Assembly (NCBI RefSeq): GCF_000419525.1
Contig: NZ_ATTE01000001.1
Coordinates: forward strand, 992,001 to 1,056,000
Source: Leucothrix mucor DSM 2157
GTDB taxonomy: Bacteria; Pseudomonadota; Gammaproteobacteria; Thiotrichales; Thiotrichaceae
Direction: 5' to 3'
Length of the DNA: 64,000 nucleotides
Under the pieces are notes generated by a model. The model was not told the origin of the DNA. It saw only the letters and a list, made by a program, of their open reading frames with translations, and searched no databases. A program made the position numbers and the translations under genes. How positions within the stretch are numbered: position 1 is the stretch's first letter; every line of letters starts with the position of its first letter. Below are positions 50,680 to 62,207 of the stretch, piece by piece.

Positions 50680-51906
50680 ATGAGTAAAACTATCGATTTT
50701 GAGATACAGGATAATAGCTTACTCTTAGTTTACCGCCCGCGCGATGGGACTGATTGGTTAAAAGAAAAACTCACTGGTACACATACATACACTATTAAAA
50801 AGACGTTCACGGTACGTCGGAAAAATATTTCAGAACCATTAAAAAAACAGGATGGCAGGGCTCTTTTAGAATCCAGTGAATTTTTGATTAAATTCAGGCT
50901 TGCTAAGCTAGTTGGAAATTATTGGAATTTCGACAAAGAGGTTCTTGGTATACCTCTTGAGCTTCGAATTCATAGCTCACTGAATTTAAATGTTAAATAT
51001 TTTATAGCGGTTAACGATATATCAGTGTTTTATCGAATTTCTGAGCTGGTCGAAAGTAAGTCTTTGACTATTGGTGGTGAGACTGGGGATGAAGAATGGT
51101 TGTCTGAGGATGATTTTAATCACTTGGTTTCAACATTTCCTAATAGCTATGAGCTTAAGAAGTATGCAAATGCGCGCATGTCATCAGTTTTACGAGAACG
51201 TTTTCAGATGAAGCGAGATGATGAGGCGTTGTATCATAAGTATATTAACAATAAGACTGCCGCGCGTCGTAGGTCTAATGCTTTTTTCGGGATAGAAAAA
51301 TACGAATATGAGAAATATAAAGATCTACACTCTCATTTAATAAAAATGCTTGAGGACGAAAATCAATATAGCGAAAGAGAGTGGCAAAATGAGATAGTAC
51401 AATTCATCCTTCTTCTTTTCCCTAAATACCTATATGCCTTTACAGAAGCACCGGTACTAGATGGTCAGTATGAAAAAGTAAGATCCTTGGACTTTCTCTT
51501 GATCGATTTCTCTGGAAATACAGATATTGTTGAGATTAAAAAGCCTTTCGAGAAAGGTCTCGTCACTCAATCAGGCTATCGTGACAACTACATACCTCGT
51601 CGAGAGCTCTCTGGTACAGTCATGCAGATTGAAAAATATATCTTTCACCTCATGAAGTCGGGAAGGGCTGGGGAGAAAAAGTTGAATGATAAGTATGGCA
51701 ATGACGTTCACGATGGATTTAAAATAAGAATAACTAATCCTAAAGGTATGATTATTTCTGGGCGAACAAATAACCTTTCAGAAAATCAAATGAATGATTT
51801 CGAAGTGGTAAAGAGGAAGTACAATAATATTGTGGATATTCTTTCATATGATGATTTACTCAATCGTCTTGAGCATATCATTAACCGTCTAAGCCAAAAA
51901 ATGTAA
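50680..51906 (+). CDS. sduA: Shedu anti-phage nuclease (SduA, DUF4263)
   Basis: This 408-residue protein has a C-terminal DUF4263 nuclease domain of the PD-(D/E)xK type. The conserved pieces are E238 in WQNE, D271 in SLDFLL and E286-x-K288 in IVEIKKP. Shedu is a single-gene system that cuts phage DNA after sensing infection. The N-terminal 200 residues form a variable domain, as usual for Shedu. The gene is clearly more AT-rich than its neighbours (many AAA and ATT codons), which suggests recent transfer. It has no companion gene. Confidence 0.82.
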   Translation: MSKTIDFEIQDNSLLLVYRPRDGTDWLKEKLTGTHTYTIKKTFTVRRKNISEPLKKQDGRALLESSEFLIKFRLAKLVGNYWNFDKEVLGIPLELRIHSSLNLNVKYFIAVNDISVFYRISELVESKSLTIGGETGDEEWLSEDDFNHLVSTFPNSYELKKYANARMSSVLRERFQMKRDDEALYHKYINNKTAARRRSNAFFGIEKYEYEKYKDLHSHLIKMLEDENQYSEREWQNEIVQFILLLFPKYLYAFTEAPVLDGQYEKVRSLDFLLIDFSGNTDIVEIKKPFEKGLVTQSGYRDNYIPRRELSGTVMQIEKYIFHLMKSGRAGEKKLNDKYGNDVHDGFKIRITNPKGMIISGRTNNLSENQMNDFEVVKRKYNNIVDILSYDDLLNRLEHIINRLSQKM

Positions 51907-52040: not shown

Positions 52041-52433
52041 ATGGGCTACGACCTACACATAACCCGCAAAAAATATTGGGCAGACGAAGAGGATGAAGGA
52101 TCAATCTCGCTCTCCGAATGGAGCGCTCAAGTAGAAAACGACCCCGAACTCATCCAAGACCCAGACAACCCCGGAGAAAACAATTATCTATACCTAAGAG
52201 AATCTGGAAATTGGCCACTATGGTATAGCCCCGAGTCGGGAGAAATTAACACCAAAAATCCAGACACTGATGTCATCCAAAAGCTAGTTTGCATTGCCAA
52301 TTCATTGGGTGCCAAAGTTCAGGGCGACGACGGTGAGTTATACGACCTAAACGGCAATATAATCTCCGATCAACCCAGCAAACCAACATCGCCAAATGCC
52401 TCAGCCAAAAAGCCGTGGTGGAAAATTTGGTGA
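52041..52433 (+). CDS. Conserved hypothetical protein (MGYDLHITR type)
   Basis: This 130-residue acidic protein starts MGYDLHITRKKYW, a form seen in many bacteria, often near accessory loci. It contains a tryptophan-rich segment (SGNWPLWYSP) and a C-terminal variable tail. Function is unknown. It lies between the Shedu gene and the 3' end of the MoxR operon, on the opposite strand from the latter. Confidence 0.55.
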   Translation: MGYDLHITRKKYWADEEDEGSISLSEWSAQVENDPELIQDPDNPGENNYLYLRESGNWPLWYSPESGEINTKNPDTDVIQKLVCIANSLGAKVQGDDGELYDLNGNIISDQPSKPTSPNASAKKPWWKIW

Positions 52434-52461: not shown

Positions 52462-55089
52462 TCACACCGTCAATTCCACCACCACAGCCCCATACTCCAG
52501 CTCAACCACCATCACACGCCCAGCGTCAGAATGCAGCAGCAAAAATTCACCATCACCGCGACAGGTCAATTCCTCACCTTTCGGGTAAGGAATCTTTAAC
52601 AAAAGGGTGGGAACATTCGCCTCAGTATAAGCATAAACACTCAAGTGATTACTCGTCTCCGATTCAGACCCGATGACCAGCCAATCCGCAAATACCCGCA
52701 GCTGTTGGCAGCTTCCTTCATTGATAGGGTGATATTCATTTTCATTACTTGGATAGAATACAAACGAGGTCATGTCGGTCGATACCAGCAGCAGTTTTCC
52801 GGAGCTACTCATATCAGCAGGAATGTCGCTGAGTGTGGCTTGCCCCAAAGGCGTGCGCTCTTTTAAGAATAAATCAGGGAGTCGGTATTTCCATAATTCA
52901 TTATTGGTGTCGCTTTGCACCAAAAAGCTAAAGCAGGCTGGGTCACGACGTATAAGGGTGACGTCACCTTTTAAATCGCCGAGTGACCATAACGAGACCA
53001 TCGAGGGTTGTTGCAAATCCAATACCCAGAGGCGGTCTGCCTTGGCGACAATCCAGCTCAAACCATCATAATTATCAGCCCAGGTATCGAGCTTGGTTTG
53101 CTGCCAGTAGGTTGTTGAACGTGTCACCAAATCAAACACAGCGACAACTTGGAAGCCTTCATGCATTGCCACCAGCAATGCCTGATAACCCTGATCCGAC
53201 ATCACAATATCATGGCAAATATCCGCATAGCTAGCCAGTAATTCTCCCTGCGCTGAGCGATGCTCCACACCGGCCTCACCAAACGCAAGCAATAACGATC
53301 CATCCGCTAAGCGCTGACAGTCCAATATCTGACGACCAAAACAGGCGGATAGCGCATATTTGACTGGCTGTGTCTGGGTGCGCAGAGGCTGTTTTGAGTT
53401 GGATTCGCTAATGTTTATACGCGACACATCGGTCCGTAATACGTGATCATCGGCTAAGGTGATCAGTCGATTCCAGCGGCTATTGTCATGATGTATCCAG
53501 CCTTTTGCCACATCGCGTAGATAAGGGCGCACGGCCATTGACGCTAAGGATTTGGCGACTGAATTCGTTGGGTACTGGTTGAGTTCGTCAATGAGTTGTA
53601 GACGCTGCGCCGCGCTGCTACTGCTGTCATCGCGAAACAGCTGTTGAATGGCGGGTATGTACTCATCTTCGCCGTCTTGATCATAGAGTGCGAGCTTCAA
53701 CTGGTGTCGAGTCCCCAAGCTGCCACCTAGCGCGGCACTCTCTTTTAACCACGCCAAAACGGCGGGGCGTTTCTCCATCACGGGCCAGCCAATTTCCACC
53801 GCCGTTTCCAGATTACCCGATGCATAGTGCATGTCTGCGAGCATCCAGCGGAGTTGATCGGCTTCTGCTTTATGCGAGGCTGAGAGTAGGGTGATCGCTT
53901 CTTCATAGCGGTTGGAGATGCGTGCTATCTGTATGGCACGCTTCCAATCATCGGCCAGTATCCATTGGCGAATGATACGCGCAGGCTCGACCTGATGACC
54001 TTCGGCAATTTGAGCGGCCATTAAGTACTTTTTGTGCTTTTCAAGATAGCTAATCGCTTGATCAATTTCTTGCAGCAAGTCGACTAACACAAAGGCCGCT
54101 TCTTCGATTCGGCCTTCTGCATCGAGTTTATCAAAGGCTTTTTGATAGGTGTGTTTGAGCATGTTGAGGACTTGCTCATCCAGAGAAATAGATTGGCCAC
54201 CCTGACTTTGTTGCAGGCTAATACTCAACTCAGAACGCGGCATAAATCGCCCGGTAAAAGGATGATCGATGCTATCCAGTGCATCCTTCATGCTGCCTAT
54301 TGGAATCGCGCGTTTTAAGGCTTCTTCGAGATTGCCATCTTGAAATTTTTGGAGGGTATCTTCGATGAATTTTGCCTGAGCCTTGCCAATGGCATCCGCT
54401 AAAGGGCTGCGCATGAGGAGTCTCGATAAGCCCGCTTTGAGCTTATTGAGTACACTGCCGCCAGTTTTAGCAGTGCCATAATCGGAATATTTTGACGGCT
54501 TAGCATCTCTGGCGGCAGTCGTTTTCTGCTTTAAATCCTCCAGCACTTGTTGTAATTCGGCGCTGGGTTTTAGGTCTTCTTTATCAACGATTTCGCTGGT
54601 GCTGGTCTTCTTACCAAAGCTGATAGACTTAGGCTTGTCGGGGATCACAGGGGCGTGTGCCGCTAAAACAACGCACTCATAGTCACCGGCTTCAAACCAT
54701 TGGGCCGGGTCATATTGGTTTTGGTTGTTTAGGGCCGTGTGATGCCATTCACCACGATAGAGTAATCGCAGTTGCTTCGCCGCGCTTTTGCTAGCAGTTG
54801 CTGCTGAGGTGTTGTTTCGAAGGCGATTGGATAAGGTCGAGCCTTGTTTTATCAGCGCCGCGCCAGTGGTTTGGCTGACTTGCTGAAAGCGGGCGGTGGG
54901 TTGAACCAGCACATAGCCAATTTCAAGTTGATACAGCGCTGAGCCATCCTCCCAAAGCGTCAGAATCCGTTGGCGAATATCTGCCTCTTTAAGAAAGTCA
55001 TTCGCAAAAAAGTAGCCATGTACTTCATAAAATCCTGACAGCGCTGAGCGATCTAATTCGTCACTCTTTTGTTCAATGCTTGCGGTCAT
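52462..55089 (-). CDS. Beta-propeller/helical-repeat protein of the MoxR-bpX system
   Basis: This 875-residue protein is the last gene of a four-gene operon. An N-terminal domain (about 1-160, with EVHGYFFANDFLKEADIRQ) resembles the bpX6-type domain of MoxR-vWA-propeller systems. The centre (about 250-540) is helical and repeat-like (TPR-like). The C-terminal part (about 580-875) has repeating strands with the DxDxW-like pattern expected of a beta-propeller. The ATG at 55089 overlaps the stop of the gene before by ATGA. No signal peptide is seen. Its molecular job is unknown; it may present or capture a target for the ATPase. Confidence 0.6.
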   Translation of the reverse strand: MTASIEQKSDELDRSALSGFYEVHGYFFANDFLKEADIRQRILTLWEDGSALYQLEIGYVLVQPTARFQQVSQTTGAALIKQGSTLSNRLRNNTSAATASKSAAKQLRLLYRGEWHHTALNNQNQYDPAQWFEAGDYECVVLAAHAPVIPDKPKSISFGKKTSTSEIVDKEDLKPSAELQQVLEDLKQKTTAARDAKPSKYSDYGTAKTGGSVLNKLKAGLSRLLMRSPLADAIGKAQAKFIEDTLQKFQDGNLEEALKRAIPIGSMKDALDSIDHPFTGRFMPRSELSISLQQSQGGQSISLDEQVLNMLKHTYQKAFDKLDAEGRIEEAAFVLVDLLQEIDQAISYLEKHKKYLMAAQIAEGHQVEPARIIRQWILADDWKRAIQIARISNRYEEAITLLSASHKAEADQLRWMLADMHYASGNLETAVEIGWPVMEKRPAVLAWLKESAALGGSLGTRHQLKLALYDQDGEDEYIPAIQQLFRDDSSSSAAQRLQLIDELNQYPTNSVAKSLASMAVRPYLRDVAKGWIHHDNSRWNRLITLADDHVLRTDVSRINISESNSKQPLRTQTQPVKYALSACFGRQILDCQRLADGSLLLAFGEAGVEHRSAQGELLASYADICHDIVMSDQGYQALLVAMHEGFQVVAVFDLVTRSTTYWQQTKLDTWADNYDGLSWIVAKADRLWVLDLQQPSMVSLWSLGDLKGDVTLIRRDPACFSFLVQSDTNNELWKYRLPDLFLKERTPLGQATLSDIPADMSSSGKLLLVSTDMTSFVFYPSNENEYHPINEGSCQQLRVFADWLVIGSESETSNHLSVYAYTEANVPTLLLKIPYPKGEELTCRGDGEFLLLHSDAGRVMVVELEYGAVVVELTV

Positions 55090-56912
55090 GCGTTTAAGTC
55101 CCACGAAGTCATTTCCTTTCGGGTGCTTATCTCAATGGTCTTTAACAGACCTTTTTCCGTTTGATAATGCAAATAGGGCCTTTGAGGGTTTAGCTCAGCC
55201 CTAACACACGGTTCTGGTAGGACGTAGATGACCTCATTGTAGTCATCCCCAATCAGGGTGAAGGTTTGCCGATCTTGTTTGTTCATGCACACCAGTGCTG
55301 ATTGATGAACCACGGCTTTTGGATCAGTCAAACGATGCAGTCCTATGACTTGGAGTTCGGGCGAGACGATTACCGAAATAAAGTCCTCGACACCTGGGTA
55401 GCGAATATTCCATTCCGTCTCAGAGACTCTGAACGCCACTCGTCCCCCATCCTTCAGGTTCCAACTGGTTTGGTCGATGAATACTTCAGGTTTACTGCGT
55501 TGTACCTGAGTTTGCAGGGGGGCGTGCTTTATCCATTTAAAGTTAGATTGACCTTCAGCGCCCCAATGCAGGCTGAGCGTTCTTTGCTTGGGGTCTAAAT
55601 CAATGTAGTAGAAATAATTCCCGTTATAGCCAAAGGCATAGACTGACTTGGCGACGGTTTCCACGCTGCAGATATCCTCTGAAAACCGCAGGCATCGCAG
55701 ATTGCGTTTAGCATCGACCAACAAGATCAGCTCCGTTTTGATGATTACGGCCATGCTTGGCAGCTGGTCATTCAATTGAATATCGTGGGATTTTTTATAG
55801 CGCTTGTGTTTAAACTGAGGGGGAAACCCTTGTAAAAAATACTCGTCACTGGTCGCCGATAAAATATAGGTGCCTCGCTTATTAACGTACACGCCCAGTA
55901 TGGTGGTTTGCTTTGCAATTGGCAGCTGCGTACTGGGGTTGCGCGTGAGTATTTTGAAGCTTTTCAGATAACGGCTTGCATTAAACAGCACCAGAATCGT
56001 GCCGGTTTGATTCAACAGCCAAGATTTTGATTGGTTAACCTGAACAGTTTCCTGCTTAAAAGGGTTATTCAATATCTGATTGCACAGCTTATCTTCGGGT
56101 AATAATAGCGTCTGTAATTGTTGGCGATGAGCGCGTCCTACCCGGACGGTAATTTTGCGTTGCTCGTCCGCCGCAGCCTGCCTATCGCCCTGAATATTTA
56201 CCTGCATGAGCTGGGGAAAATCATCTAAGGGCTCGGGGGTGACGCACCACACCCGTCCATTAGCGAGTAGTGTTTGATCTAAGCCATCAAGTCGCTGTGT
56301 GAGTACCGATTTGTCGAGCAAGTCGGCTGAGCACATCTGTAACCAGTTTTCGATCAGCGCTGGAGTAATGCCTTCAAACCATTGCTGTTTAGAATCTTGG
56401 ATGACGCCCCAGTGCAGTTTTGCCTGCATAGCTTCGGCGTAACGCAGTAATAAAATTAGCACCGCCAATTGCACCACACGTGGCCGACCTAACTGCTCAG
56501 GCCCACAGTCCAGCAGCACATACACCGCCTCATCATTGGTGCGTTCTCGGTGCGCTAACTTATAAAACTGATGTTCTTTAAAGGCGGCACGGCGAATGAA
56601 TTCTTCCGGGAAGTCATGGTATATCGCCCATTCACTGGTGAGTAGGCGCTCGTAATTGACTAAGGAATGAATGCCTTCAATGCCGTCAGGTTCATCTTGT
56701 CCTGCCATTTCCTGAAGCGGTAAGACTTTAATGACCTTGGATAACACATTCCCCATTTGCTCTAACGGCATGCGCAAATCAGGTAGAAATGCGTGTAGCA
56801 AACTAGCCCATGAACTGATTTCATCGGGCAGTTGATGGCTTTTTTGTTGGTCACTTTCAACGGCGAACGTCGGGGCTTTTGTAGTGGTCGCTGCCAGATT
56901 GTTTTGTGTCAT
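55086..56912 (-). CDS. Degenerate vWA plus beta-propeller protein of the MoxR-bpX system
   Basis: This 608-residue protein has an N-terminal region with a vWA-like core, YVLLDCGPEQLGRPRVVQLA (near residue 140), in which the metal-site serines of the DxSxS motif are missing. The C-terminal half (about 300-608) is strand-rich and propeller-like. The ATG at 56912 overlaps the stop of the gene before by ATGA; a longer start at 56969 is less likely. It would bridge the MoxR ATPase to other subunits, as vWA partners usually do. The lost metal site suggests the contact is non-catalytic. Confidence 0.6.
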   Translation of the reverse strand: MTQNNLAATTTKAPTFAVESDQQKSHQLPDEISSWASLLHAFLPDLRMPLEQMGNVLSKVIKVLPLQEMAGQDEPDGIEGIHSLVNYERLLTSEWAIYHDFPEEFIRRAAFKEHQFYKLAHRERTNDEAVYVLLDCGPEQLGRPRVVQLAVLILLLRYAEAMQAKLHWGVIQDSKQQWFEGITPALIENWLQMCSADLLDKSVLTQRLDGLDQTLLANGRVWCVTPEPLDDFPQLMQVNIQGDRQAAADEQRKITVRVGRAHRQQLQTLLLPEDKLCNQILNNPFKQETVQVNQSKSWLLNQTGTILVLFNASRYLKSFKILTRNPSTQLPIAKQTTILGVYVNKRGTYILSATSDEYFLQGFPPQFKHKRYKKSHDIQLNDQLPSMAVIIKTELILLVDAKRNLRCLRFSEDICSVETVAKSVYAFGYNGNYFYYIDLDPKQRTLSLHWGAEGQSNFKWIKHAPLQTQVQRSKPEVFIDQTSWNLKDGGRVAFRVSETEWNIRYPGVEDFISVIVSPELQVIGLHRLTDPKAVVHQSALVCMNKQDRQTFTLIGDDYNEVIYVLPEPCVRAELNPQRPYLHYQTEKGLLKTIEISTRKEMTSWDLNA

Positions 56913-57319
56913 GGCAACGTCTCGGGGTCGATACGGCTCAGTGGTAAGGCCGCAGAGATATTGAAGCACTGGTGATGCTTGGGATCAATCGCATACTGGC
57001 CCGTGCCAAATAGCGTTGCGACCGCACTGGCAATCAAGGCTATCGGTAAGGAGGGCGATAAGGTTGTCGGCAGGTAGAGATTAGTGACGCCACTTGCCTG
57101 ACCTAAATACAGTGCACCGGGAATCCAAGGGAGATCCTGATTAGCGCCCAGCAGTACAGCCACATCGCTTCCATGCGCTAGCTTCAAGCGAGCTTTTTGC
57201 TCTGGTGTAAAGCTTGCGAGCTTTGCTTTAAATAGAGGGTACTCTGCGGCATAAATCAGTAAGCCACTGGCGGGCAAAGGCTGCTGGGAGGGTTTCCACA
57301 CAATATCCGACAGCTTCAC
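56909..57319 (-). CDS. Small bpX5-like subunit of the MoxR system
   Basis: This 136-residue protein starts with a GTG that overlaps the MoxR stop (GTGA) and resembles the bpX5-like domain of MoxR-vWA-propeller systems: PLPASGLLIYAAEYPLFKAKLA, then LLGANQDLPWIPGALYLGQA and PTTLSPSLPIALIASAVATLFG. It has no catalytic motif that I can see. It is probably a structural or recognition part of the complex. Its stop overlaps the next gene by ATGA. Confidence 0.55.
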   Translation of the reverse strand: MKLSDIVWKPSQQPLPASGLLIYAAEYPLFKAKLASFTPEQKARLKLAHGSDVAVLLGANQDLPWIPGALYLGQASGVTNLYLPTTLSPSLPIALIASAVATLFGTGQYAIDPKHHQCFNISAALPLSRIDPETLP

Positions 57320-58437
57320 GCAACCGTTCCTAACGCCACCAATAAGGCTTCTCTTGCCTGCTTTAAGCCTTCGGGTAAGGTCTCCAGAGAGAACTGTGTG
57401 TCGATCTCACGGCCCAGTGCTTCCAGCGCTAAGGTGTCTCTTTCTCCCACGGGTTGCGCTAGTAGTGCGTTGACCGCAGTTTGCAATTGCTGCGAGCGCG
57501 CCAGTGGGCCTTTGGAGGCATGTTCAGCGGCGGCGGTTAATGTTTCATTTTGCGAGGTGGCGAAGGTGTCTTTTAATAAATCACGTGCTGTTTGCTGAGC
57601 GTGTTCATCACCCACCACATACAACAACGGCCATAAATCTTGTGTCGTCGGATTATCGCGTCCATCTAATATGGCAGCGGCGGCAATCAAGCGCTGGGCT
57701 TTAATAATGCGGCGGTCAGATAGCAGAATATTGGCTTTACGCAATAGGCGAATGCAGTCAGCGAGTGGTCTGATAATCCCGCTCATATCCGCTTGGCGAC
57801 AAGCAGCCGTGAGTTGATCCAGATGGCTAAGTTCGATTTTTTCAATGGCCGTTTTATACTGATACTGCCAACCGTTTTCCAGCAAGCTTTCCAACTGTGA
57901 GTCTGGCACATTATCGACAAAATAGTGTACGAGGAAGCGATCTGCAAATGCCGCCAATGAATCATCTTGTGGTAAATGGTTAGACGCTGCCACGCAAATT
58001 CGCAGCGGGCATTTCAATTGCGTTTGGCCACGCCTGAAAGTTCTTTCGTTGAGAATCCCTAGCAGCGCATTCAAGATTGCGGTTGAGCCCAGAAACACTT
58101 CGTCCAAAAAGACAATGTCAGCTTCTGGCAGCATGTTTTTGGTGGAGGTTTCGACGATGCCATCTTTCAGTTTTTGTAGGTCAATTGGCCCGAATAACTC
58201 GCTGGGCTCAGTGAAGCGGCCCAGCAAGTATTCAAAGTATTGGCTATCAAACATGTCAGAGACGGCACGGACCACCGCGCTCTTTCCCGTACCTGGTGGG
58301 CCGATGATAAGTAGATGCTCTTCTGCAACACAAGAAAGGAGAATGAGATCGACTAAGGTTTCACGGTCCACTAAGCCTGCGGAGGCTTGTTGTGCGGAGT
58401 GCTTGATATGCTGAGCAGTTTCTTTTAAAGATGGCAT
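57316..58437 (-). CDS. MoxR-family AAA+ ATPase
   Basis: This 373-residue ATPase has Walker A GPPGTGKS (46-53), Walker B IVFLDE (108-113) and the sensor-1-like AASNHLP segment. MoxR proteins work as chaperone-like rings with a vWA partner. It is the first gene of the operon of four, joined to the next by a GTGA overlap. The group is known from comparative genomics as part of MoxR-vWA-beta-propeller systems with a proposed role in conflict; experimental work on them is limited as far as I know. Confidence 0.85.
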   Translation of the reverse strand: MPSLKETAQHIKHSAQQASAGLVDRETLVDLILLSCVAEEHLLIIGPPGTGKSAVVRAVSDMFDSQYFEYLLGRFTEPSELFGPIDLQKLKDGIVETSTKNMLPEADIVFLDEVFLGSTAILNALLGILNERTFRRGQTQLKCPLRICVAASNHLPQDDSLAAFADRFLVHYFVDNVPDSQLESLLENGWQYQYKTAIEKIELSHLDQLTAACRQADMSGIIRPLADCIRLLRKANILLSDRRIIKAQRLIAAAAILDGRDNPTTQDLWPLLYVVGDEHAQQTARDLLKDTFATSQNETLTAAAEHASKGPLARSQQLQTAVNALLAQPVGERDTLALEALGREIDTQFSLETLPEGLKQAREALLVALGTVA

Positions 58438-58500: not shown

Positions 58501-59346
58501 TTATCTTAACTCCCTCAGCATTGTCTCTCTGAACAGCAAAGTACCGGCATAACGCGCGCCGGGTTCGGTTAAGTGCCAACCGTCGTAGGAGATCAATTCG
58601 TGGTTGTTGGTAAAGACTTCACAATGCTTATCGGAACCATCGCACAAGACTTTTTGCTGATCGATAAAGCGCGCACGGGTGCCGGTGAGTCCTTCTTTTA
58701 AGATCGCATTAACACGACGAATGTGGCGAGGCACATCGTTGGAGAGCTCCAGTAACTTGTCTGGCGACATGCGTAAGTAATTGCGGATGCTAATTTTACC
58801 GAAGTTTTTATTGCCCAAAACAATCACCCGTTGGTTCGGGCGTAGCTTCAAATACTTCAGGGTATGCGGCAATGCGCGGGCTGCTTTTTGCTTCCAACGT
58901 GCGGCGAAAATGACGACGTCGGCATTTTTTATTTGCTCAGCGGCCAATCTCAAATTATCGACGCGTGCTTCCTGAGCACAAAGCGGCCGGTCTTTCGGGG
59001 CGATGACATTGTGATCAAAGGTTGGCTGGCAGCTATAGGGAATGTAGCGCAAGCTGACTTGGTAGTTCTTGAGGTTTCCCGTTTCAACCGCGCCATTATA
59101 AAAATCACAGGCTTGACTATCGCCGATGATCAGCACCTTGCGCTTGCTGGCTTTCAGGTCGAAAGGTTGTTTGGTAATCGCTTTGCAATGGCGAAAGGTG
59201 TACTCGCCACTGTAGTCAGTGTTGGAGTATTTAATTAGTTGTTGGCGCAGTCCGGCTGCATTAGCCGCGACCATTCCCGAGGTCAGCAATACGATGCTGG
59301 TTAATACAGCCCCGGATACGCGTGCTCTGAATCCATTCATCATCAC
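58501..59346 (-). CDS. Secreted SGNH-hydrolase-like protein
   Basis: This 281-residue protein has a signal peptide (about 1-31) and an SGNH-hydrolase core: the nucleophile in IIGDSQACD (near residue 75) and the catalytic D-x-x-H in DGWHLTEPGARY near 262. The same fold is found as the C-terminal domain of OafA-type acyltransferases, but here it is alone. It may remove or transfer acyl groups on cell-surface glycans. It is 64 bp upstream of the moxR start, on the same strand, and may or may not be co-transcribed. Confidence 0.75.
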   Translation of the reverse strand: MMMNGFRARVSGAVLTSIVLLTSGMVAANAAGLRQQLIKYSNTDYSGEYTFRHCKAITKQPFDLKASKRKVLIIGDSQACDFYNGAVETGNLKNYQVSLRYIPYSCQPTFDHNVIAPKDRPLCAQEARVDNLRLAAEQIKNADVVIFAARWKQKAARALPHTLKYLKLRPNQRVIVLGNKNFGKISIRNYLRMSPDKLLELSNDVPRHIRRVNAILKEGLTGTRARFIDQQKVLCDGSDKHCEVFTNNHELISYDGWHLTEPGARYAGTLLFRETMLRELR

Positions 59347-59551
59347 ATCCGTTATTTTATGATTTAATTAAGTGGGTAGCATAGCAGGTACACAAAATAA
59401 TTAGTGTACGACCAGTGACCACTTGCAGCGTGATAGCTGAAGGCGGGGCATAGGTATTCTGAGGCGCGGTTGACACCACGCAAAGCGTTGACTGAGCAAT
59501 GACTTAGCACTTAGGATGACATTAGCACTTTAAAAATAATTGGAATTATTG

Positions 59552-60649
59552 ATGTTCGATCAAATAAAAGACTCCATCAATCCCGGTAAGAATCCTGACC
59601 TGATTCACGCGCACCAGTTTCAGCGAGACAACTTGCCGACCTTATGGCTGGTAGGCAAAACCGGTGCAGGCAAATCGACCTTTATTCAAGCCATCACCGG
59701 GCTTTCATCGGTTGAGGTCGGAAATGGCTTTGCGCCCTGTACCAAGACCGCGCAGGCTTATGATTTTCCGGAAGATAAGCCGCTGGTGCGTTTTTTAGAT
59801 ACGCGAGGGCTGGGTGAGGCGGACTATGACCCCGAGGCCGATCTGGACGAAATTGGTCAATTAGGCCATGCGCTCGTGGTGGTTATGAAAGCTGATGAGC
59901 CAGAGCAGTCTGCGGTGTTGAGCGCGCTTAAAAAGATTAAACAGAAAAAGAAGATTAAACACTTATTACTGATCCACAGTGCTGTGCTGCTGTCGGATGA
60001 AAAAGATCGCGAGCGCCAAGTTACTTTTAATACGCAACAGGTAAAAGCAGTCTGGGGCGATGATTTTAAATCGGTGGCTGTTGATTTTGAAACTGAGGAT
60101 GGCTCGGTTTACAACTACGATACGCTGGTGGAGGCGCTGGAGGAAATGCTGCCCGTGGTCGGAATCATCGCCGATGTTAAAGGCCATTCAACCATTGAAG
60201 AAGCGAATTTCGATCTGGTCAAAAAAGAAGTGCTTTGGTATGCAGGGACTGCCGCGGCCAGTGATTTGATTCCCGCCGTAGGCTTAGTGTCCGTGCCAGT
60301 CATTCAAGCGAAATTGCTGTACAGCTTGGCGAATCAATACGGCGTTGAGTGGAATAAGCGCACCTTCAACGAACTCATTGGCACATTGGGCAGCAGCTTT
60401 GCTGTGCAATACGGGGTGAAGCTAGGAGTTCGGCAGTTGATTAAATTTGTTCCCGTATATGGGCAAACGGTGGGTGCAGTGACCGCTGCGGCAATGAGTT
60501 TTGGGACGACCTACGGCCTCGGTCGGGCGGCGTGCTATTACTTCTATCACAAGAGTAAAGGCGTTGAAGTCTCACCAGAGACAATGCAGGACTTATATAA
60601 AGATGCCCTTAAAAAAGGCAAGGCGGCGTCGGGTTATGAAGAAAATTAA
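59552..60649 (+). CDS. P-loop GTPase with C-terminal membrane-like domain, gene 1
   Basis: This 365-residue protein has a GTPase domain: P-loop GKTGAGKS (35-42) and G3 DTRG (83-86). The usual NKxD motif is not seen; the position has IHSAVLL. The C-terminal region (about 230-345) is hydrophobic, like DUF697/YcjF-type membrane domains. The ATG at 59552 is preferred to the TTG at 59540. Its end overlaps the start of a second GTPase gene by 14 bp. The pair probably works together at the membrane. Function is unknown. Confidence 0.7.
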   Translation: MFDQIKDSINPGKNPDLIHAHQFQRDNLPTLWLVGKTGAGKSTFIQAITGLSSVEVGNGFAPCTKTAQAYDFPEDKPLVRFLDTRGLGEADYDPEADLDEIGQLGHALVVVMKADEPEQSAVLSALKKIKQKKKIKHLLLIHSAVLLSDEKDRERQVTFNTQQVKAVWGDDFKSVAVDFETEDGSVYNYDTLVEALEEMLPVVGIIADVKGHSTIEEANFDLVKKEVLWYAGTAAASDLIPAVGLVSVPVIQAKLLYSLANQYGVEWNKRTFNELIGTLGSSFAVQYGVKLGVRQLIKFVPVYGQTVGAVTAAAMSFGTTYGLGRAACYYFYHKSKGVEVSPETMQDLYKDALKKGKAASGYEEN

Positions 60650-62207
60650 AGGCTTATACCGTCTGCTATCGGATTTATCAGGCAGCCGTTGGTTGATTTT
60701 TATGATATCAGCGTTGCTTCCGGTGCTGACCATTATGGGCTTTGGTATCGTTTTAGCGATTAAATACGATTACCTACTGATGTTGTCGATCGCGATTACG
60801 ATCAGTACTTTGTTGGTCACGGTGCCCTTGTTTTTTATCAGCCGAATGGCCAAGCAAGAAGAGGCGGAGATTCATCAGGAAGTACTGACTCAGATCAAAG
60901 ATGGTCTGGTGAAAACTTCCAGCGATTGGTCTCAAGCAGAATTAGTGATTTGGAATACCTCAAGAGCTTACACACGGGAGCAATTGAAAGCAGGCATTGA
61001 GTGGGCCAACCTGCATCAAGCAGGCTTTGAGATTTTAGAATTGGTCGCCCAGCAATTCGGTAAAAAGACCTTAGGGTTTTCAATCCCCGAAGGCTTAAAG
61101 CTCTTTGAAGAGGTAAGCCGGCGCTACAAATTAGTGGTGAAAAAAAATATCCCAGGCATTGAGTACATTAAAATTTCTCACATTAAAGCGGGATACAAGG
61201 CTTATGAGAAATACGGCGCAGTCGGCCAAAAAGTGGTGACTGCAGCTATCTGGGCCAATCATGCCAAAAACCTCTACTACAATCCCTTAAAAGTCGTGTC
61301 CGACCTCACTAAAGAGCAGGCCACCGCTTCCATGACCAAGGGCTTTGTGGATGATATGCAGCTCATGGCGAAAGAGGCCTTGCTGGATGAGGTCGCGGCC
61401 GTGGCGATTGATTTATACAGCGGGCGATTTAGCTTAGAGGATGCGGACCTGCAAGTCTCGAATGCCTCTGGGGTGGATGAGGAGCATTTTGCGCCAGCCT
61501 TAGAACCAATTCGCATTGTTACCGTGGGTCAAACTGGGGCTGGAAAATCTTCGATTGTGAACCTGCTAAAAGATGAGTTGGCTGCAGAGGTTGATGTTTT
61601 ACCCTCGACACAGGGCTCAATGGTGTATGACGTCATCGTTAATGATATTGATGTGAGGGTGGTTGATTTACAGGGTTTAGATGGCGATACGAGTACTGAA
61701 AAGCAGATGCTCAAAGAGATGACTCAGGCGGATTTGATTCTGTGGGTACTCAAAGCGAATCAATCGGCGCGTGATCTTGATAAGCAACTCAATGACAAGC
61801 TGGCTTTGTTTTATGCTGATCCTAAAAATATCTCGTATAAAAAGCCGGTGGTGATTGCAGTGGTGAATCAGGTTGATAAGTTAAAACCAATCGCCGAGTG
61901 GGAGCCGCCGTATGACTTGGAGAACCCAGCTAGCGCAAAAGCGAAGATTATCGCTCAGGCGGTTGCTTATAATCGGGAGCTGATGCATTCGGATATTGCT
62001 TTGCCGTTATCGATCTCAACCACTAAAACGCATTTTGGTGTGGAGACGCTTAAGCAAACTTTGGTTGATGGCATTGTTGAGGCGAATAATGTGCAGAGAA
62101 ACCGGCAGCGAGTAGAGGCGATGAAGCGGGGCGTGTCATTTAAAAAGCAATTTGATAAGACGGTGAATGTCGGCAAGAAGATTGTTCGCCATACCTATAA
62201 GGATTAG
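60636..62207 (+). CDS. Membrane-anchored P-loop GTPase, gene 2
   Basis: This 523-residue protein has two N-terminal membrane segments (about 19-42 and 47-70), a helical middle (about 75-285) and a C-terminal GTPase domain: P-loop GQTGAGKS (298-305), G3 DLQG (344-347) and G4 NQVD (411-414). The order is opposite to that of gene 1, which has its GTPase first. Start is the ATG at 60636 within the 3' end of gene 1. The complete nucleotide-specificity motif contrasts with gene 1. A stress or membrane-remodelling role is possible. Confidence 0.72.
   Translation: MKKIKGLYRLLSDLSGSRWLIFMISALLPVLTIMGFGIVLAIKYDYLLMLSIAITISTLLVTVPLFFISRMAKQEEAEIHQEVLTQIKDGLVKTSSDWSQAELVIWNTSRAYTREQLKAGIEWANLHQAGFEILELVAQQFGKKTLGFSIPEGLKLFEEVSRRYKLVVKKNIPGIEYIKISHIKAGYKAYEKYGAVGQKVVTAAIWANHAKNLYYNPLKVVSDLTKEQATASMTKGFVDDMQLMAKEALLDEVAAVAIDLYSGRFSLEDADLQVSNASGVDEEHFAPALEPIRIVTVGQTGAGKSSIVNLLKDELAAEVDVLPSTQGSMVYDVIVNDIDVRVVDLQGLDGDTSTEKQMLKEMTQADLILWVLKANQSARDLDKQLNDKLALFYADPKNISYKKPVVIAVVNQVDKLKPIAEWEPPYDLENPASAKAKIIAQAVAYNRELMHSDIALPLSISTTKTHFGVETLKQTLVDGIVEANNVQRNRQRVEAMKRGVSFKKQFDKTVNVGKKIVRHTYKD

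Follow-up and report, generated by a model that had tools for sequence, protein, structure and literature searches.

Closest described systems

MoxR proteins commonly serve as enzyme-assembly chaperones, for example CbbQO and CoxDE. Kaur et al. (2020, eLife, PMC7159879) described β-propeller-containing ternary systems as subsystem 4 of the MoxR-vWA (von Willebrand factor type A) systems, and their assignment of these systems to conflict was built on class-level arguments. This subsystem was reported there for 118 organisms, of which 44 were multicellular (P 0.0094). A GXXXTAKS P-loop is said to be frequent in the ternary systems, and a membrane-spanning segment of the third component is described and, in that description, not called universal (PMC7159879). 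The four genes analyzed here form an operon in Leucothrix mucor DSM 2157, within positions 992,001-1,056,000 of NZ_ATTE01000001.1; this whole stretch of 64,000 nucleotides (nt) is referred to as the window and all coordinates are relative to it. The operon belongs to the MoxR-vWA-β-propeller ternary systems of Kaur et al., a class that is already known, so far mainly through genome comparisons. Its products probably constitute a self-contained ATP-driven protein-remodelling machine of this class, working like RavA-ViaA. The first-pass annotation had mentioned little direct experimental work, and the literature searched yielded no experimental study of the class.

The middle domain of ViaA (residues 192-311) stimulates the RavA ATPase, and the authors suggested that it contacts the triple-helical domain of RavA (PMC10585395). 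The RavA-ViaA pair reportedly works through the inner membrane (PMC9489729). Protection against a toxin of the type VI secretion system has been shown for arc2 (PA4317-23), a MoxR-VWF (von Willebrand factor) cluster of Pseudomonas aeruginosa (Ting et al., 2022, PMC8926400). In one operon, arc2 encodes a MoxR-like ATPase and a VWF-domain protein, to be compared with the MoxR ATPase and the vWA-like partner of the window operon. Unlike the window operon it comprises seven genes, and the passages on the cluster used for this comparison mention no propeller or bpX part.

Organization of the operon

The open reading frames (ORFs) of the window comprise four minus-strand genes running from 58437 to 52462 in the order MoxR, bpX5, partner (the vWA-like protein) and bpX6. 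The 4-nt overlap claimed earlier for every junction was confirmed from the sequence (GTGA 57319-57316, ATGA 56912-56909 and ATGA 55089-55086), and translation from these starts gives proteins of 373, 136, 608 and 875 amino acids (aa). The MoxR, bpX5-like and bpX6-like assignments of the first-pass annotation were borne out by Pfam profiles, since the ATPase matched bpMoxR (PF20030, 288.5 bits, E 2.4e-86), the 136-aa protein bpX5 (PF19921, 86.3 bits, E 1.9e-24) and the 875-aa protein bpX6 (PF19922, 67.2 bits, E 2e-18), each above the cut-off of 27 bits. The 608-aa third product matched no Pfam family above cut-off, and Pfam detected no effector domain in the four proteins. AlphaFold models and fold matches agreed with the propellers proposed for both large proteins. 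The features of the operon are as follows.

57316-58437, minus strand: MoxR-clade AAA+ ATPase (bpMoxR), 373 aa (PF20030; RavA is the closest solved relative)
58279-58302, minus strand: Walker A motif GPPGTGKS, residues 46-53 (motif count in 81 sequences)
56909-57319, minus strand: bpX5 protein, 136 aa, GTG start, 4-nt overlap with the MoxR stop (PF19921)
55086-56912, minus strand: vWA-like partner with C-terminal propeller, 608 aa (model, alignment and profile comparison)
56532-56825, minus strand: N-terminal helical region of the partner, residues 30-127, partly similar to the ViaA middle domain; candidate MoxR docking site
56478-56510, minus strand: replaced metal ion-dependent adhesion site (MIDAS) motif of the partner, D135-x-G-P-x-Q-x-G-x-x-R145 (alignment)
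55089-56042, minus strand: β-propeller of the partner, residues 291-608 (model and fold match to Hsv2)
52462-55089, minus strand: bpX6 protein, 875 aa (PF19922; model)
54697-55032, minus strand: core of the bpX6 domain, residues 20-131 in the model (Pfam and model)
54484-54486, minus strand: residue 202 of the bpX6 protein, where a hydrophobic segment is inserted in many relatives and none is present here
53410-54456, minus strand: α-solenoid of the bpX6 protein, residues 212-560 (secondary structure of the model)
52465-53337, minus strand: β-propeller of the bpX6 protein, residues 585-875 (model and fold match to 5oql_A)

As in the ternary systems of Kaur et al., a MoxR protein is combined with a partner carrying a C-terminal propeller and with a third protein carrying helical repeats and a propeller, bpX accessory domains (bpX5, bpX6) are present and a conventional effector is absent. 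The window operon differs from these systems in that its third protein has no membrane-spanning segment and its Walker A motif is GPPGTGKS rather than the TAKS variant; moreover, other parts vary more within the class than the N-terminal bpX6 domain does.

The MoxR ATPase and its partner

RavA of E. coli was the closest solved relative of the MoxR protein by sequence (140 bits), and the two could be aligned across residues 8-268. However, the alignment stopped at about residue 277 of the 498 residues of RavA, and the window protein scored 164.6 bits against an NCBIfam equivalog cut-off of 681 for RavA. The window system further differs from RavA-ViaA in its changed MIDAS residues, its two propellers, bpX5 and bpX6. 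Among 81 sequences the Walker A motif was GPPGTAKS in 76, GAPGTAKS in three and GPPGTGKS in two, so that TAKS occurred in 79/81; the window MoxR, which lacks the GXXXTAKS variant, shared the GPPGTGKS form only with locus L051.

The AlphaFold model of the partner (predicted local distance difference test, pLDDT, 81.7; predicted template modelling score, pTM, 0.59) consisted of N-terminal helices, an α/β core (residues 128-285) and the propeller (residues 291-608), which matched the fold of Hsv2 (Z 14.8, root mean square deviation (rmsd) 4.3, 278 aligned residues). The DxSxS metal-site motif was absent from residues 81-160 in all 75 partner sequences including that of the window, in agreement with the earlier claim that the metal-site serines are lost. 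Conserved instead were D135 (65 of 68 aligned rows), G137 (67), P138 (60), Q140 (67), G142 (68) and R145 (67), although a strict pattern of the new motif missed 9/75 sequences. The position aligned with the second MIDAS aspartate of ViaA was Asp in 2/68 rows. Conservation of D135, G137, Q140, G142 and R145 in its place gives the metal site the look of a replacement and not of decay.

Partner residues 26-290 (68 sequences) were compared by hhalign with a profile of ViaA and nine relatives. The alignment spanned 179 columns and ran collinearly across ViaA residues 213-422, from the middle domain into the vWA domain, with partner residues 48-110 aligned to ViaA 213-289 and D135 falling on the MIDAS Asp of ViaA. 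It scored 24.7, and none of 200 column shuffles, a mild control, did as well (maximum 23.5, longest alignment 95 columns); a reversed-profile control scored 14.1. This was the sole comparison to exceed the shuffles, and the probability that hhalign itself gave it was 2.2%. These results suggest, without proving it, that the N-terminal half of the partner may be a ViaA-type middle plus vWA module. The loss of the serines proposed by the first-pass annotation therefore stands in 75/75 sequences, while the vWA identity has the profile alignment on its side and the lack of a Pfam vWA family against it.

Selection was estimated as the ratio of nonsynonymous to synonymous substitution rates (dN/dS) in up to 10 locus pairs, an eleventh pair being left out. 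The lowest medians, 0.03 each, were those of the MoxR AAA region (10 pairs) and the partner helical region (9 pairs). The highest single values were 0.97 for the partner propeller (L060/L101) and 0.93 for bpX5 (L089/L081). Across 70 loci including the window, mean pairwise identity was 0.77 for the MoxR AAA region, 0.37 for the bpX6 domain, 0.32 for the bpX6 propeller, 0.24 for the partner propeller and 0.23 for the bpX6 linker, and the ranking was nearly unchanged within 26 Pseudomonas loci. The propellers are thus among the most variable parts of the system. A hypervariable N-terminus of the third component was considered and rejected within the class, the bpX6 domain being more conserved than the propeller and the linker of the same protein.

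In Massilia rubra (L102:11457-19738), bpX5 and bpX6 flank a tandem array of five partner ORFs, four of them near full length with 29-74% mutual identity and one comprising the propeller only; its relative L090 has a single partner gene. The partner and bpX6 genes of Xanthomonas phaseoli (L117:10888-16064) appear to be split over several frames, as if decayed.

Soluble and membrane forms of the bpX6 protein

The model of the bpX6 protein (pLDDT 86.4, pTM 0.72) showed the bpX6 domain followed by a low-confidence linker, an α-solenoid (212-560) and a propeller (585-875) that matched the Pwp2-like 5oql_A (Z 19.9, rmsd 3.6, 272 aligned residues). A segment of one or two strongly hydrophobic stretches, defined by hydropathy only (≥1.9 within residues 141-320), was present as an insertion near reference residue 202 in 43/71 relatives (43/72 with the window included). 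By its sequence this segment is probably membrane-spanning. It was carried by 24/26 Pseudomonadaceae, 3/3 Orbaceae and most Betaproteobacteria, and was lacking in the window, 11/11 Lysobacteraceae, Microbulbifer, Hahella, Zooshikella, four Myxococcota and three Acidobacteriota; six changes of this trait were required on the MoxR tree. The maximum hydropathy of the window protein, 1.64 over 19 residues, starts at residue 637 in the propeller. Because the hydrophobic segment is absent from it, the window copy appears to be a soluble and not a membrane-bound form.

Conservation and inheritance of the four-gene unit

When the contigs of one genome collection were scanned with an alignment of four MoxR sequences, 357 relatives of MoxR were retrieved, and the full operon was checked in the best 80 by MoxR similarity ranking. 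Their hosts included Pseudomonas, Lysobacter, Xanthomonas, Massilia, Chromobacterium, Variovorax, Gilliamella, Frischella, Myxococcota, Acidobacteriota and others. The order MoxR-bpX5-partner-bpX6 on a single strand was found in 73/80 loci (bpX6 of L058 and L102 being cut by the contig end), and the remaining seven are truncated by contig ends and for that reason lack one to three genes. With start codons chosen by rule, the 4-nt overlap of MoxR and bpX5 occurred in 51/77 loci, and that at the other two junctions varied (21/71 and 9/69). In Corallococcus (L071:11143-12946), MoxR and bpX5 are separated by about 1.8 kb that contains other ORFs.

The distribution was patchy. Own genome counted, bpX5 was detected in 2/115 genomes of relatives and in 5/369 genomes of the class (4 above cut-off), and bpX6 in 3/398 genomes of the phylum; bpX6 was also present in 14/199 genomes of a single genus, presumably Pseudomonas. 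When 16 kb of DNA was searched against seven genomes of the window's own genus, three of them less than 70% complete, the operon matched its own genome only. A search for bpX0 gave no match in the own genome, nor in any control genome.

Some loci indicated movement of the unit as a whole. Three of 16 locus pairs (L088/L062, L046/L076 and L105/L108) have little in common beyond the operon, while the other 13 also share flanking DNA. The two Pseudomonas loci L088 and L062 have a single 6.4-kb stretch in common (79.5% identity), which begins about 95 nt ahead of MoxR and ends shortly after bpX6. In five further genomes that carry the operon (G817, G823, G824, G849 and G856), the matches listed for the query L143 at the operon site did not extend beyond the operon. 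In Pseudomonas syringae clade 2b-a, ravA, bpX5, 6ND4 and bpX6 were described as clade-unique and located within one plasticity region (PMC9677677); 6ND4 probably corresponds to the partner gene, given that 6nd4 was likewise one of the propeller matches of the partner here. Since the four genes stay together and sometimes relocate together, it is plausible that their products form a complex, as the first-pass annotation had supposed. No clean empty site for the operon was obtained in the genomes compared. Genes for transfer RNA (tRNA) or transfer-messenger RNA (tmRNA) were found in 8/55 scanned loci, at most 3 kb outside the operon in three of them (L057, L085 and L098), and none was called in the window.

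A MoxR tree, built by a quick method without bootstrap, required 14 changes for 15 host families, which is the minimum possible (ten rows unassigned). Together with the long synteny common to five Lysobacter loci, this tree argues against frequent wide transfer of the operon. Carriage on mobile DNA was considered and rejected. A plasmid search with the bpX6 protein returned one record, a 5.7-Mb Embleya replicon, with 31% identity over 28% of the query (L153:8001-8747; residues 218-466, in the solenoid). This match hints at relatives in Actinomycetota.

Possible function of the operon

A RavA-ViaA-like mechanism is reasonably supported. The ATPase would assemble as a hexamer, on which the conserved N-terminal helical region of the partner may dock. 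The altered metal site would no longer bind peptide by the classical metal-dependent route, and target recognition may have shifted to the propellers, which vary more. As a putative scaffold, the solenoid-propeller protein would be membrane-anchored in many relatives and cytosolic here. On ATP hydrolysis the bound protein would be set free or remodelled. The most likely role of such a machine would be accessory protection against invaders, antagonists or stress, because the distribution of the operon is patchy. The suggested link to ViaA offers the class a first mechanism that is open to biochemical testing, and the soluble version of the window may purify more easily than the membrane-anchored forms.

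Several results weigh against this interpretation. With regard to ViaA, no vWA family was among the Pfam matches of 68 partner members (E ≤0.1), the probability assigned by hhalign was insignificant (P 0.021) and the margin over the shuffles was small. The entire partner alignment used as query scored 22.8 (P 0.083), and neither the comparison with E. coli ViaA by itself (P 0.037) nor any of those with three DUF58 proteins from the own genome was significant. The fold lists of both large proteins contained propellers only and were uninformative on the α/β, bpX5, bpX6 and solenoid parts. With regard to protection in conflict, the MoxR tree follows the host families, and diversifying selection was rejected, median dN/dS being below 1 in all ten regions. 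The bpX6 protein had no match among phages, and at least eight MoxR relatives on viral contigs included no close match (best 37% identity among the matches listed). Neighbours of the relatives were called by a simple ORF rule, and Pfam assigned the 20 sampled (10 from five loci and 10 from eight others, several being the second or third gene from the operon) mostly metabolic, signalling and regulatory functions; one was HipA-like and three were without family.

An anti-phage or anti-plasmid conflict system, in which the propellers would sense the invader and MoxR would reset or fire the response as Kaur et al. propose (PMC7159879), is possible but on the doubtful side. Besides the published classification, it agrees with the patchy counts of bpX5 and bpX6, with the operon as the only common element of L088 and L062, with the clade-unique genes in one plasticity region of P. 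syringae (PMC9677677) and with the tandem array of M. rubra. However, the four proteins contain no effector domain, bpX5, partner and bpX6 matched no PADLOC system protein (E ≤0.01) and the best match of MoxR (7e-06) overlapped with AAA only. PADLOC (E ≤1e-10) likewise gave no match for 10 neighbours from five loci, and the mostly ordinary neighbours, the absence of phage matches and, among the matches listed, of closer viral ones, the dN/dS medians and the Lysobacter synteny point the same way. The conflict role rests on the published classification, and the context here adds no support to it. The conflict claim of the first-pass annotation thus keeps that classification and loses the contextual part, the adjacent Shedu gene having no counterpart beside any of 80 other loci. 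These results caution against an anti-phage label for the class that is based on nothing but context.

A protective role in interbacterial antagonism or under envelope damage, similar to that of arc2, is rather doubtful. The reported action of RavA-ViaA through the inner membrane (PMC9489729) and the probable membrane segment in the bpX6 protein of many relatives are in accordance with it, while the likeness to arc2 is one of gene content, the window copy has no such segment and no neighbour family recurs in most loci. We regard as unlikely a ViaA-derived sensing machine in which a new motif replaced the metal peptide site, recognition lies in variable propellers on soluble or membrane scaffolds, and at least one host, M. 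rubra, has expanded the recognition gene alone into a set of specificities that represents an innate recognition repertoire without a classical effector. An assembly chaperone that serves a single enzyme or complex is quite unlikely. Such roles are common for MoxR proteins and the ATPase is under strong purifying selection; on the other hand the operon is patchy within genera, and the commonest flanking family occurred in 18/82 loci, some with short flanks, on both sides and both strands. An ordinary chaperone for one enzyme, raised in the first-pass annotation as the contrary reading, is therefore not supported, as no neighbour family was common to most loci.

Genes adjoining the operon in the window

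The nearby Shedu gene noted earlier is real (PADLOC SduA E 3e-137); it adjoins the operon on the opposite strand at 50680-51906, and a 130-aa ORF without Pfam match lies between the two (52041-52433). The guanine-cytosine content of the operon was 0.46-0.52, like its surroundings, and that of the Shedu gene was lower (0.37-0.42). Two GTPase genes with weak LeoA/LeoBC matches are located at 59540-62207. In the 80 related loci, tblastn (E ≤1e-4) detected no match for the Shedu gene, the 130-aa ORF or either GTPase. A defence-island reading was rejected on this basis and on the mostly ordinary sampled neighbours. Because the DNA of this stretch matches three congeners (G006, G003 and G004) at 73-81% identity, the two GTPases probably belong to the native gene content of the genus and lie outside the operon unit. 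An SGNH-domain gene (58501-59346) on the same strand as the operon stops 63 nt short of the start of MoxR, and its matches in congeners lie on different contigs from the GTPase pair (L018, L019).

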